Source: Phycisphaerae bacterium
GTDB taxonomy: Bacteria > Planctomycetota > Phycisphaerae > Phycisphaerales > Phycisphaeraceae
Reading direction: 5' to 3'
DNA length: 64,000 nt
Assembly: GCA_030425705.1 (NCBI GenBank)
Contig: JAUHZU010000001.1
Coordinates: forward strand, 496,001-560,000
Below, in pieces: positions 1,097 through 4,682 of this stretch (position 1 is its first letter; each line of letters opens with the position of its first letter). Below the pieces are notes generated by a model. The model was given only the letters and a program-made list of their open reading frames with translations. It was not told the origin of the DNA and made no database searches. The position numbers and the translations under genes are program-made.

Positions 1097-2131
1097 CTAC
1101 CACTTCAACACAACCTTCCCGCACTGGCCCGAGAGCATCGCGTCGAAGCCCTGCTGGAAGTCGTCGACGCCGAAGCGGTGGGTGATGACGGGCGACAGGT
1201 CGAGGCCGGACTTTACCATCGCGGCCATCTTGTACCAGGTCTCATACATCTCCCGGCCGTAGATGCCCTTGATCGTGAGCATATTGAAGACGACGGTGTT
1301 CCAGTCGATCGCCATGCCGTCTTCGGGGATGCCCAGCACGCTGATCTTCCCGCCGTGCGCCATGTTGGCGATCATGTCGGCGAAGGCGCGGGGGTTGCCG
1401 GACATCTCCAGCCCGACGTCGAACCCTTCGCGCATGCCGAGGGCCTGCTGGGCGTCTTTGATCGATGTGTTCGCGACGTTGACGGTGTGCGACGCGCCCA
1501 TAATCGCGGCGAGCGCGAGGCGGTAGTCGTTGATGTCGGTCACGACGATGTGCCGGGCCCCGGCGTGCTTGCAGATCGCCGCGGCCATGATGCCGATCGG
1601 CCCGGCCCCGGTGATGAGCACGTCTTCGCCCAGCAGGTCCCACTGCAGCGCGGTATGCGTTGCGTTGCCGAACGGGTCGAAGATCGACGCGACGTCGCGG
1701 TCGATGTCTTTGGGGTGCTCCCAGACGTTCGCGTTGGGGATGGCGACGTACTCGGCGAACGCGCCGGTGCGGTTCACGCCGATGCCCTTGGTGTCCTTGC
1801 ACAGGTGCCGACGGCCCGCGAGGCAGTTGCGGCAGCGCCCGCACACCACGTGCCCCTCGCCCGAGACGACCATGCCCGGCTTGAAGTCGTTGACGTTGCT
1901 GCCGACCTCGATGATCTCGCCGACGAACTCGTGGCCCACGACCATGGGGACGGGGATCGTCTTCCGCGCCCAGTCGTCCCACTTGTAGATATGCACGTCC
2001 GTGCCGCAGATCCCGGTGCGGTCGACCTTGATGAGGACATCATTGATGCCGATCTTCGGGACGGGCACGTCCTCCATCCAGATACCCTCTTCGGGCTTGG
2101 CTTTGACCAGTGCTTTCATCGTCTCAGGCAT
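1097..2131 (-). CDS. tdh: L-threonine 3-dehydrogenase
   Basis: Zinc- and NAD-dependent medium-chain dehydrogenase of 344 residues, full length, which oxidises threonine to 2-amino-3-ketobutyrate. The catalytic zinc site is visible as [12 protein letters not shown] and GHEFVGE, and the structural zinc site as [15 protein letters not shown]. The Rossmann glycine motif is [10 protein letters not shown]. It starts at ATG 2131 and is followed by kbl. A TATACT hexamer on the minus strand at 2160-2165 is a plausible -10 element, but no convincing -35 lies upstream of it. The gene is divergent from the leucine-controlled leuA leader; in E. coli tdh itself responds to leucine through Lrp, so shared leucine control is possible but is inference here. 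Confidence 0.96.
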
Positions 2132-2235
2132 CGCGGGGTCCTGTCGTGCGGGGTCGGGGAGTATAGCTGCATCACCCAGCGATTGTGGACCGTATCAACC
2201 CGTAGTCGCTGGCGCGTACGCGTCGGTTTCGTGCA

Positions 2236-2264
2236 TTGACACCCCGGAAGGGCAGGGGTATTCT
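2236..2264 (+). promoter_or_regulatory. sigma-70 promoter of the leu leader and leuA
   Basis: A consensus -35 TTGACA (2236-2241) is followed by a 17-base spacer and a -10 TATTCT (2259-2264). The expected transcription start, six to seven bases after the -10, falls at about 2270-2271, exactly on the ATG of the leader peptide. The leader would therefore be translated from an essentially leaderless mRNA. Confidence 0.8.
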
Positions 2265-2270
2265 CCGGAC

Positions 2271-2348
2271 ATGCAACGCGACCTGCTCCTTACCGGCGAC
2301 CTCGGCATCGGCCTCCTTGGGCTGCTGCTTATCCCGTCCGCCGGCTAG
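2271..2348 (+). CDS. leuL: leucine leader peptide (25 aa) controlling leuA
   Basis: Short ORF of 25 codons from ATG 2271 to TAG 2346-2348. Nine of the 25 residues are leucine and two are isoleucine, including the runs LLL, LL and LLL, using CTG, CTC and CTT codons. It sits directly under a consensus promoter and ends 34 bases before a strong intrinsic terminator, with leuA beginning 104 bases after its stop codon. This is the classic arrangement of translation-coupled attenuation: ribosome stalling at scarce leucyl-tRNA would prevent terminator formation. No Shine-Dalgarno is possible because the predicted transcript begins at the ATG; leaderless attenuation peptides are known in Actinobacteria. 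The symbol follows the enterobacterial name by function, not by sequence homology. Confidence 0.8.
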   Translation: MQRDLLLTGDLGIGLLGLLLIPSAG

Positions 2349-2410
2349 GGCACCGCGATCAACCACTGCGACGATCGATCCACCCCGCCGGCCGCCCGGC
2401 GGGGTTATTG
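2338..2410 (+). terminator. leuA transcription attenuator (terminator with competing segment)
   Basis: The terminator is a perfect 9-bp stem CCCCGCCGG (2383-2391), loop CCGC and CCGGCGGGG (2396-2404), followed by TTATTG. The end of the leader ORF carries a second copy of the left-arm heptamer CCGCCGG (2338-2344), which could pair with the right arm, and a self-complementary GCCGGC (2340-2345) that could pair with the same hexamer at 2387-2392. Either pairing would disrupt the terminator. A ribosome at the leader stop codon would cover this competing segment, whereas one stalled on the leucine codons upstream would leave it free. Confidence 0.75.
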
Positions 2411-2451
2411 TGTATGTCCCCGGGCCCCGGTCCCTTACCTTGAAGAACACC

Positions 2452-4020
2452 ATGCCAACACCCATCCGCATCTTCGACACGACCCTGCGCGACGGCGAGC
2501 AGTCGCCCGGGGCCTCGCTGAACCACGACGAGAAGGTCCAGATCGCCCGCCACCTCGAAGCGATGGGGGTGGACATCATCGAGGCCGGCTTCCCGATCAC
2601 CAGCCAGGGCGACTTCGAGGCCGTCAAGGCCATCGGTAAGGACCTGGCGCAATCCACGGTCTGTGGGCTCGCCCGCTGTATCAACGCCGACATCGAGCGC
2701 GCGGCCGAGGCCCTCAAGAACGCGCACAACCCCCGGATCCACGTCTTCTGCGCGACCTCGAACATCCACCTCGAGCACAAGTTCGGCAAGCCGTTCGAGG
2801 CGATCCTCGAGATGTCCGTCAAGGGCGTGGAGAAGGCGAAGCAGTACGTCGACGACATCGAGTTCAGCCCGGAGGACGGTAGCCGGACCGGCATCGACGA
2901 ACTGGAGCAGATCACCCGCGCCGCCATCCAGGCCGGCGCGACTACGATCAACATCCCGGATACGGTGGGCTATTCGATGCCGGCCGAGTACGGCGCGATC
3001 TTCTCCCAGCTCCGCGAGCGTATCCCGGAGATCGACCGGGACGGGATCATCCTCTCGGCGCACTGCCACAACGACCTGGGCGTGGCCGTGGCCAACTCGC
3101 TGGCCGCGGTCGAGGGCGGGGCGCGGCAGGTCGAGTGCACGATCAACGGCATCGGCGAGCGCGCGGGCAACGCCGCGCTCGAAGAGATCGTGATGGCCCT
3201 GCGGACCCGCGCCGACTTCTACGGCAAGTACACGACCGCGATCGATGCCTCGAAGATCTACCACGCCAGCCGGATGGTCTCGACGCTGACCGGCCTCGCG
3301 GTGCAGCGGAACAAGGCCGTCGTCGGTCAGAATGCGTTCGCCCACGAAGCGGGCATCCACCAGGACGGGATGCTGAAGAACCGCAACACCTACGAGATCA
3401 TGGACCCGCGCGACATCGGGGTGCCCGAGAGCAAGCTGGTCTTGGGCAAGCACTCGGGCCGGCACGCCCTGGCGGACCGGATCAAGGAGCTGGGCTATGC
3501 CGTGGACGACGAGACGCTCGAGCGGGTGTACCACGACTTCAAGGAGCTGGCGGACAAGAAGAAGGACGTCTACGACGAAGACATCGAGGCGTTGCTGGAC
3601 CAGGGGCTGAGCGATGGCAAGGAGCAGTATGAGCTGGTGCGGTTCCACGTGACCGCGGGGACCGAGCAGACGTCGATGGCGTACGTGATGCTCAAGACCC
3701 CCGACGGCGAGATGAAGGGCGACACCGCGCACGGCTTCGGCCCGATCGAGGCGGTGCTCGCGGCGGTGCAGCGCATCGCCGGCGTGGATGCCCGGCTGGA
3801 GGAGTACGCCTCGCGCGCGCTCACCGGCGGGACGGAGGCGATGGGTGAGGCGAACGTGCGCATCAGCAGCGCCGGGCGGATGGCGCGGGGGCGGGGGGTG
3901 TCGACCGACATCATCGAGGCGGTGGTGATCGCGTTTGTCACGGCGATCAACCGGATCGCCGCAATGGGGCCGGCACCCGAGACACACGAGGGCGACACCG
4001 CCGGGTTCGCTTCGCCATGA
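2452..4020 (+). CDS. leuA: 2-isopropylmalate synthase
   Basis: Condenses acetyl-CoA with 2-ketoisovalerate in the first committed step of leucine synthesis. The protein has 522 residues from ATG 2452, matching the usual length of the long LeuA form with its C-terminal leucine-binding regulatory domain. The catalytic TIM barrel shows [13 protein letters not shown] near the N-terminus, the metal-binding [12 protein letters not shown] and [14 protein letters not shown]. The reading frame is open further upstream to 2236, but that part overlaps the leader and attenuator and has no family similarity, so ATG 2452 was chosen. It is regulated by the attenuator upstream. Its stop overlaps the following methyltransferase start (ATGA). 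Confidence 0.96.
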
Positions 4021-4682
4021 GCCGGTCCGAGTTCGGCGAGATCGCGCGGGAGCACTACCGCCGGCGGGACTACGTCGGGCTGTTCGAGACGTTTTACGCC
4101 AACGTCGGCGGCGATCCGAGCCGCGTGCCTTGGGCGGACCTGCGGCCCCACGATGCGATGCTGCGTTGGCTCGACGGCCAGCCCGCCCCGGCACCGGGCC
4201 AACGCGCGGCGGTCGTCGGCTGCGGCTTGGGGGACGACGCGATCGCCCTGGCCGAGCGGGGCTACCACACGCTGGGCTTCGACATCGCGCCGACCGCGAT
4301 CGACTGGGCCGGCCAGCGATTCAGCCACGAGCGCCTGCGGTTTGAGGTGGCCGACCTGTTCACGCTGCCGCAGGCCCTGCTCGGGGCGTTTGACCTGGTC
4401 GTTGAAATCTACACCTTCCAGTCCCTGCCCCTTGCGGTCCGGCCGGCGGCGATGGACCATGCCGCTTCGCTGGTCGCGCCGGGCGGCCGGCTGCTGGTGA
4501 TCTGCCGTGGCCGCAACGCGGACGAGCCCGCGACGAAGCTGCCGTTCCCGCTGCAGCGGTCGGAGCTTGCACGGTTCACGGACGCGTGCGGCCTGGCCGA
4601 AACGCGTTTCGAGGACTTCATGGATCAGCAGGACCCGCCGGTCCGTCGCTTCCTGGCCGAGTACCGCCGGCCGGCGGATTAG
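4017..4682 (+). CDS. class I SAM-dependent methyltransferase
   Basis: A 221-residue protein with a Rossmann methyltransferase core. Motif I is VVGCGLGDDAIALAE, followed by the acidic strand end GFDIAPTAIDWA and, later, the post-motif stretch FDLVVEIYTFQSL. The size and order of motifs resemble small-molecule methyltransferases of the thiopurine or tellurite type, but the substrate cannot be told. Its ATG overlaps the leuA stop by four bases, so it is probably translationally coupled to leuA and would share leucine attenuation. It has no obvious role in leucine synthesis. Confidence 0.8.
   Translation: MSRSEFGEIAREHYRRRDYVGLFETFYANVGGDPSRVPWADLRPHDAMLRWLDGQPAPAPGQRAAVVGCGLGDDAIALAERGYHTLGFDIAPTAIDWAGQRFSHERLRFEVADLFTLPQALLGAFDLVVEIYTFQSLPLAVRPAAMDHAASLVAPGGRLLVICRGRNADEPATKLPFPLQRSELARFTDACGLAETRFEDFMDQQDPPVRRFLAEYRRPAD

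Follow-up and report, generated by a model that had tools for sequence, protein, structure and literature searches.

The window, a 64,000-nucleotide stretch of DNA from a Phycisphaerae bacterium, carries immediately before leuA an element that is real and functional-looking, and whose best explanation is a ribosome-mediated attenuator with a leucine leader that is predicted to be leaderless. The element consists of recognizable parts conserved among relatives, with alternative pairings that covary, a recurrent placement of the leucine codons, and a switch from leucine to isoleucine where a similar element precedes cimA. We consider it very probable that it controls leuA as a transcription attenuator; transcription would then start at the leader, the leader would be translated, and readthrough would respond to leucine.

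The leuA upstream region and its relatives

A preliminary description of this DNA had proposed a promoter, a 25-codon ORF with nine leucines, a hairpin and a duplicated segment, all of which we found in place (Table 1). The ORF (2271-2348) translates as MQRDLLLTGDLGIGLLGLLLIPSAG*, with leucine at residues 5-7, 11, 15-16 and 18-20, and 6 nt separate the -10 box from the A of its ATG at 2271; the +1 is predicted to lie at or near A2271. The terminator hairpin, which begins 33 nt past the leader stop, has 10 pairs (9 of them G-C) and a loop of 4, is followed by TATTGTGTAT, and ends 46 nt before the leuA ATG. Its U-tract (TTATTG) is weak, and most of the relatives printed have a run of at least five T. 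The heptamer CCGCCGG is present twice, once close to the 3' end of the ORF (2338-2344) and once within the terminator's left arm. The leuA product scored 740 bits against NF002086 and 709 bits against TIGR00973, both above cut-off. A short ORF rich in codons for the end product precedes the biosynthetic gene both here (leucine, leuA) and at cimA (isoleucine), and a predicted intrinsic terminator, with a weak U-tract in the window, stands between leader and gene.

Table 1. Positions of the parts of the predicted leuA attenuator in the window, and of a candidate element before cimA
Feature	Position	Strand	Basis or remark
Promoter	-35 TTGACA 2236-2241, 17-nt spacer, -10 TATTCT 2259-2264	+	Sequence scan; same register in G001
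Leader ORF (leuL-like), 25 codons, 9 Leu, predicted leaderless	2271-2348	+	Stop TAG 2346-2348
Putative main control codons CTG CTG CTT, 6-8 codons upstream of stop	2322-2330	+	Leu peak in 54 elements; CTT enrichment
Predicted antiterminator 5' strand CGGC-UA-GGG, includes stop codon	2342-2350	+	Pairs with 2383-2385 and 2387-2390; fold and family-wide pairing, covariation
Predicted spacer hairpin (CGAUC ... GAUCG), inside antiterminator helix	2356-2377	+	Fold
Predicted intrinsic terminator hairpin	2382-2405	+	Left arm 2382-2391 (common to antiterminator), right arm 2396-2405; weak U-tract next
leuA, 2-isopropylmalate synthase, putative regulated gene	2452-4020	+	Profile scores
Own-genome cimA candidate attenuator	G000:C7:210703-210792 (L003:1362-1451)		Covariance model match

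A scan of both strands of positions 1500-4500 returned two promoter-like sites, where shuffles predict 0.2, with no further plus-strand promoter-like site, and two terminator-like sites, where they predict 1.0 (sd 0.9), so that a hairpin plus tail is by itself unremarkable in this region. Folding, which had been put forward as a check, bore out the terminator, which alone reaches -21.5 kcal/mol (z -3.28 against shuffles), and not the antiterminator piece (2342-2394; -16.4 kcal/mol), whose z is only -0.81 and which 43 of 200 shuffles equalled in stability. A T-box, a riboswitch or a known Rfam leader was rejected, none being found at gathering score: the two Rfam matches in window 2000-2600 fell far below it, and across five loci, L004 among them, only a tRNA reached it. 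Divergent minus-strand neighbors, which we take to be kbl (about 1-972) and tdh (1097-2131), lie within positions 1-2131, and a promoter-like sequence for that strand occupies 2189-2160.

Of the family f1 genomes searched, 34 of 37 have a LeuA with at least 60% identity, as do four of five from its sister family f6; the closest named proteins belong to Planctomycetota ZRK32 (67%, L044), a Phycisphaeraceae MAG (63%, L034) and a Phycisphaerales MAG (59%, L035). In a genome of the same genus (G001) the promoter boxes, leader, spacer and terminator are all kept, and similarity drops directly past the terminator. We then applied a strict rule calling for a 12-35-codon ORF in which leucines number four or more and make up at least 22%, followed 10-90 nt downstream by a hairpin and a T-rich tail. 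The rule was passed by 25 of 31 readable f1 leuA upstreams and by all four from f6; the leucine codons and terminator, on whose persistence in relatives the preliminary description had staked its reading, are thus conserved. A leader is visible by eye in five of the six f1 failures (L014, L019, L022, L032, L116), and the sixth, from G007, appears degenerate.

Across the phylum we sampled 148 genomes, 64 of which had LeuA at 1e-100, and read 55 additional upstreams. Twenty of these passed, including every one from families f26 (12/12) and f25 (3/3), and no strict-rule element was picked in the other 35, which take in all 10 from f38 and all five from f15. Altogether 55 of 100 leuA upstreams passed, compared with none of 100 reverse strands and two of 300 dinucleotide shuffles. 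This set excludes two loci with too little upstream sequence (L007 and L117; 25 and 41 nt), one gene cut by its contig (G022:C866), and two genomes in which no start motif was found (G191, G100); less one duplicate (G110), it yields 54 distinct elements. Among the named loci a start motif was found in 75 of 80, and the seven matches comprised six planctomycete contigs already among the 100 and one weak alphaproteobacterial case (L079).

With a covariance model made from 29 elements, 45 of 61 genomes gave matches at E<=0.01, several of the weak ones resembling ordinary gene-end terminators. We rejected matches of this kind (for example G003:C92, G053:C76 and G057:C1:3358503), as well as one in the window's own genome (C16:463423) that resembles a gene end with its terminator. 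Four genomes (G143, G093, G109 and G121; L183-L186) have two tandem units of leucine leader and terminator before leuA, a possible double attenuator. In three others (G166, G184 and G148; L166, L169 and L170) leucine-rich leaders have their stop codon within a small hairpin of their own (for example TTGCGCC-TTTA-GGCGCAA) and no terminator was picked, perhaps representing a divergent form.

Promoter spacing and the start of the leader

To ask where leader transcripts might begin, we compared the distance between predicted -10 boxes and start codons in the 32 close elements, namely those of f1, f6 and contigs L034, L035 and L044. The first in-frame ATG or GTG lies 6-12 nt past the predicted -10 in all 32, and in 28 of them the distance is 5-10 nt, compared with 8.1% of shuffled promoters (the promoter controls, like those for trpE below, are mononucleotide shuffles). 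A purine-rich motif near the start was seen in two of the 32 (L004, L033), in both cases within or adjoining the -10 box. The window's own genome has the strict promoter-ATG pattern seven times, compared with once in the control; at each of these sites (L121-L127) the start lies 5-8 nt past the -10 and opens a reading frame, and leaderless genes may be a normal feature of the organism. As far as promoter prediction can tell, the comparison supports the earlier proposal that the leader is leaderless.

It is nonetheless conceivable, if unlikely, that the same attenuator operates on an mRNA that starts further upstream, with the leader translated in some other way. Elements elsewhere in the phylum are compatible with such a 5' UTR: 13 of the 21 scored lie 15-61 nt from a -10-like box, five lie at 6-12 nt and three have no usable promoter, and G169 gave no promoter in the spacing scan. 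The attenuator is therefore wider-spread than the leaderless start. Against an upstream start for the window stand the uniform spacing of the close elements, the seven promoter-ATG sites of its own genome and the isoleucine leaders (at least two Ile) that precede cimA, 26 of 29 of which start 5-12 nt past a -10, compared with 11% in shuffles.

Putative control codons and the competing pairing

Across the 54 leaders leucine is frequent 6-13 codons upstream of the stop (0.44-0.74) and rare in the final three codons (0.02-0.07). In 32 elements the leader leucine codons are also skewed relative to leuA itself, with CUU making up 25.8% vs 7.5% and CUA 14.8% vs 1.7%.

The segment around the leader stop pairs better with the left arm of the terminator (median score 23 over 54 elements) than with the right (14), the left being better in 47 and the right in five. 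The stop segment is thus complementary to the left arm, which places the stop codon inside the antiterminator; the codon lies entirely within the best pairing in 38 of the 54. TAG ends 44 of the 54 leaders and five of the 33 leuA genes at the same loci. In the preliminary description the competing segment duplicates the left arm and would accordingly bind the right one. A competing pairing does exist, but as a general rule we rejected that version on the strength of the 47 elements that favor the left arm. The window is itself one of the five exceptions (ungapped scores of 22 to the right arm and 18 to the left), and both pairings are possible in it, the right being better because GCCGGC is self-complementary.

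Several controls bear on this pairing. The strand is typically CCGGAUAGGG vs CCCUGUCCGG in the window's group and GGUCUUAGG vs CCUGAGACC in family f26; between clades several antiterminator pairs have changed on both sides, and the right arm of the terminator differs as well. In an alignment of 29 of the 32 close elements, from which L016, L119 and L035 were omitted as divergent, a choice that favors the pairing percentages, 83.3% of antiterminator cells are paired vs at most 45.5% in slid versions, and 89.3% of terminator cells vs at most 59.8%. The antiterminator covariation score was equalled by none of 500 shuffles and its number of pair types by two; four pairs changed on both sides, a number that 64 of 500 shuffles equalled, and these shuffle comparisons take no account of relatedness. 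Paired with the left arm of the same element, stop segments scored 22.4, compared with 16.3 for the arms of all other elements and 13.9 for those of another clade; choosing pairings by best score inflates them, and the swap and slide controls answer this only in part. The spacer between the antiterminator strands has a mean z of -1.09 against shuffles (26 of 54 below -1, one above +1).

We modelled the switch by assuming that a ribosome covers about 13 nt downstream from the first base of its A-site codon and, when short of leucine, stalls at the last leucine at least five codons upstream of the stop. Given the position of the leucine cluster, a stalled ribosome would leave the stop segment free and a ribosome at the stop would hide it. 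With a stalled ribosome and the right arm not yet made, the antiterminator folded in 51 of 54 elements; with the ribosome at the stop, the terminator formed in 53 and the antiterminator in none. When the stalled complex was folded as full-length RNA, the terminator remained the most stable structure in 50 of 54, so that the switch would have to be kinetic and decided by timing. In the pre-terminator fold with no ribosome at all the antiterminator formed in 33 of 54, and readthrough of untranslated RNA might consequently occur in many species; the ribosome-free stop segment of the window is sequestered by the leader itself. In these models, a ribosome stalled at the control codons would release an antiterminator mutually exclusive with the terminator.

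Ribosome-mediated attenuation, as proposed in the preliminary description, is supported by this comparison through the excess of strict-rule elements over reverse strands, the covariation and the leucine geometry. RNA polymerase would start at or a few bases from the leader AUG, and ribosomes would load on the leaderless mRNA. With charged leucine tRNA plentiful, the ribosome would reach the UAG within the antiterminator strand and, parked there, cover that strand, leaving the left arm free to form the terminator and stop transcription before leuA. With leucine short, it would stall at CUG-CUG-CUU, 6-8 codons upstream of the stop, and the free stop segment could pair with the left arm while the right arm is still to be transcribed, allowing readthrough into leuA. 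The embedded stop codon makes for a compact design whose logic is readable from sequence.

Other biosynthetic genes and known attenuators

The leuA covariance model also matched, weakly (E 0.005), directly upstream of the HMGL paralogue cimA in the window's own genome, a citramalate synthase (TIGR00977, 609 bits). The leader there, MLQANAQIAAILAMTPPR*, likewise predicted to be leaderless, has TATCCT 6 nt upstream of its ATG and only two isoleucines; it fails the rule we applied to cimA, a leader with at least three isoleucines plus a terminator. This failure and the unremarkable antiterminator fold of the window lower our confidence in the attenuation reading very slightly. The rule was passed by 29 of 37 cimA upstreams (one of them, G023, appears spurious), compared with none of 37 reverse strands and two of 111 shuffles. 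When leaders were picked blind to composition, those before leuA (a pick in 36 of 38 upstreams) were 27.6% leucine and 3.9% isoleucine, and those before cimA (27 of 37) were 24.4% isoleucine and 4.8% leucine. That cimA appears to carry this scaffold re-coded for isoleucine is the strongest support for the attenuation reading. A swap of leucine for isoleucine between two homologous synthases amounts to a natural codon-swap experiment.

Other pathways gave varied results. Isolated cases of a leader and a terminator-like hairpin were seen before a DAHP synthase gene (phenylalanine-rich; L331, G026:C2:347878-347985) and before a gene that we take from its sequence to be ileS-like (isoleucine-rich; L325, G027:C27:63803-63891). 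At trpE, mini-ORFs with at least three tryptophans precede 7 of 18 genes, not all convincing, vs about 4% in shuffles; the seven include the window's own genome, where the ORF (L215; G000:C21, minus strand) reads MRNPTPPTRWACWRWPIG* and resembles those in G003, G009 and G011. The screen of these 18 upstreams for a leader with a terminator yielded one weak terminator-like hairpin (L210). At ilvB no leader with a terminator was picked in 12 upstreams, and 11 of the 12 have ORFs rich in valine, isoleucine and leucine that end at a TGAGCGG..CCGC stop motif, which was defined after inspection and without a control. The own-genome ilvB leader (L198, G000:C4; about 230-300 nt before position 1500), which contains branched-chain residues, reads MRLNRSALQIARANAVIAALILVM*, ends at TGAGCGGAAGACCCGC and matches no Rfam family; the mechanism at ilvB may differ. 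No leader with a terminator was found in 13 hisG upstreams screened (15 loci; one had a mini-ORF with at least three tryptophans) or in 10 screened for leuS (22 loci), and four leuC upstreams were read by eye only.

The ilvB leaders lend some credit to the idea that the leuA leader is translated and has its main effect post-transcriptionally or by way of Rho, its hairpin being just a processing or end site, since they carry a conserved stop-codon hairpin motif in the same genomes with no leader-plus-terminator pick; the weak U-tract of the window points the same way. We regard this as improbable, as hairpin and T-rich tail recur with covariation. It is less probable still that the ORF serves to make a small functional peptide and is followed by a constitutive intergenic terminator: the ORF is conserved and hydrophobic, but its sequences vary save for the leucine position and the RNA-constrained tail, the isoleucine-rich leader before cimA indicates that composition follows the pathway, and leuA begins 46 nt past a hairpin in a scanned region with no other plus-strand promoter. 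Chance coincidence of a leucine-rich ORF with a terminator can be set aside for practical purposes: leucine codons are common in GC-rich DNA and terminator-like sites alone occur near expectation, but the reverse-strand and shuffle counts, the conserved register and the covariation all speak against it.

Taking attenuation by a leucine leader as the reading for leuA, we lean, with some reserve, toward a modular regulon of amino-acid attenuators in Planctomycetota, in which one scaffold is re-coded for each pathway (leucine for leuA; isoleucine for cimA and one ileS-like gene; phenylalanine for one DAHP synthase), with terminator-poor kin at ilvB (valine, isoleucine, leucine) and trpE (tryptophan), leaderless loading, and a few tandem attenuators at leuA. 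The scaffold itself would consist, on the same cautious footing, of a leaderless control ORF, a stop codon in a one-helix antiterminator, a spacer hairpin and the terminator. If this is true, a leaderless start would load the first ribosome once the 5' end emerges, in place of the classical leader started at a Shine-Dalgarno sequence.

In enterobacteria, leuA is preceded by leuL, a leucine-rich leader that uses rare leucine control codons and a terminator/antiterminator switch. The planctomycete element resembles leuL-leuA in all three respects and differs in that its leader starts at the predicted 5' end and its stop codon forms part of the strand pairing directly with the left arm of the terminator. 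Excerpts on the S. typhimurium leu attenuator identify CUA as the control codons, whose replacement by CUG lowered sensitivity (PMC1183508); here CUU is enriched besides CUA.

Leaderless leader peptides are described in the available portion of a study of S. lividans for leuL1, leuL2, trpL and ilvL, with a hairpin and U-run after leuL2 and no typical intrinsic terminator for leuL1, which we take to be the leuA one (PMC8079986). The element reported here likewise has a leucine leader, predicted to be leaderless, and, unlike leuL1 as that portion presents it, has a conserved terminator and lies in another phylum. In the sections at hand, the actinobacterial LEU element is a pseudoknot in which leucine codons pair with the leuA Shine-Dalgarno sequence (PMC1262725). 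It shares with ours a leader of leucine codons before leuA; ours, in contrast to that account, places a terminator hairpin before the leuA ATG and a control strand at the leader stop, the conserved pairing joining stop segment and left arm. The ilvB-II and ilvB-OMG motifs, to go by the partial text, involve uORFs of ilvB rich in branched-chain residues (PMC10272879), and are alike in their mode of attenuation and unlike in gene and structure.

According to the extract available from a 2010 survey, its authors were aware of demonstrated leader-peptide systems in no groups other than Proteobacteria and Actinobacteria; they add candidates from Firmicutes (PMC2965389). A tally of short leader genes in Planctomycetes, judging from its accessible part, has reinitiation as its subject (PMC4833913), and the term leuA is absent from it; among the matches listed, the open-licence literature searched contained no planctomycete attenuator. 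A conserved set in Planctomycetota would put the leader-peptide mechanism in another phylum and would argue for coupled transcription and translation there. If 5' ends are confirmed, the leuA leader also tests how leaderless initiation supports attenuation. The mechanism itself is a variant on known leader-peptide attenuation, and what appears to be new is its breadth and modularity.
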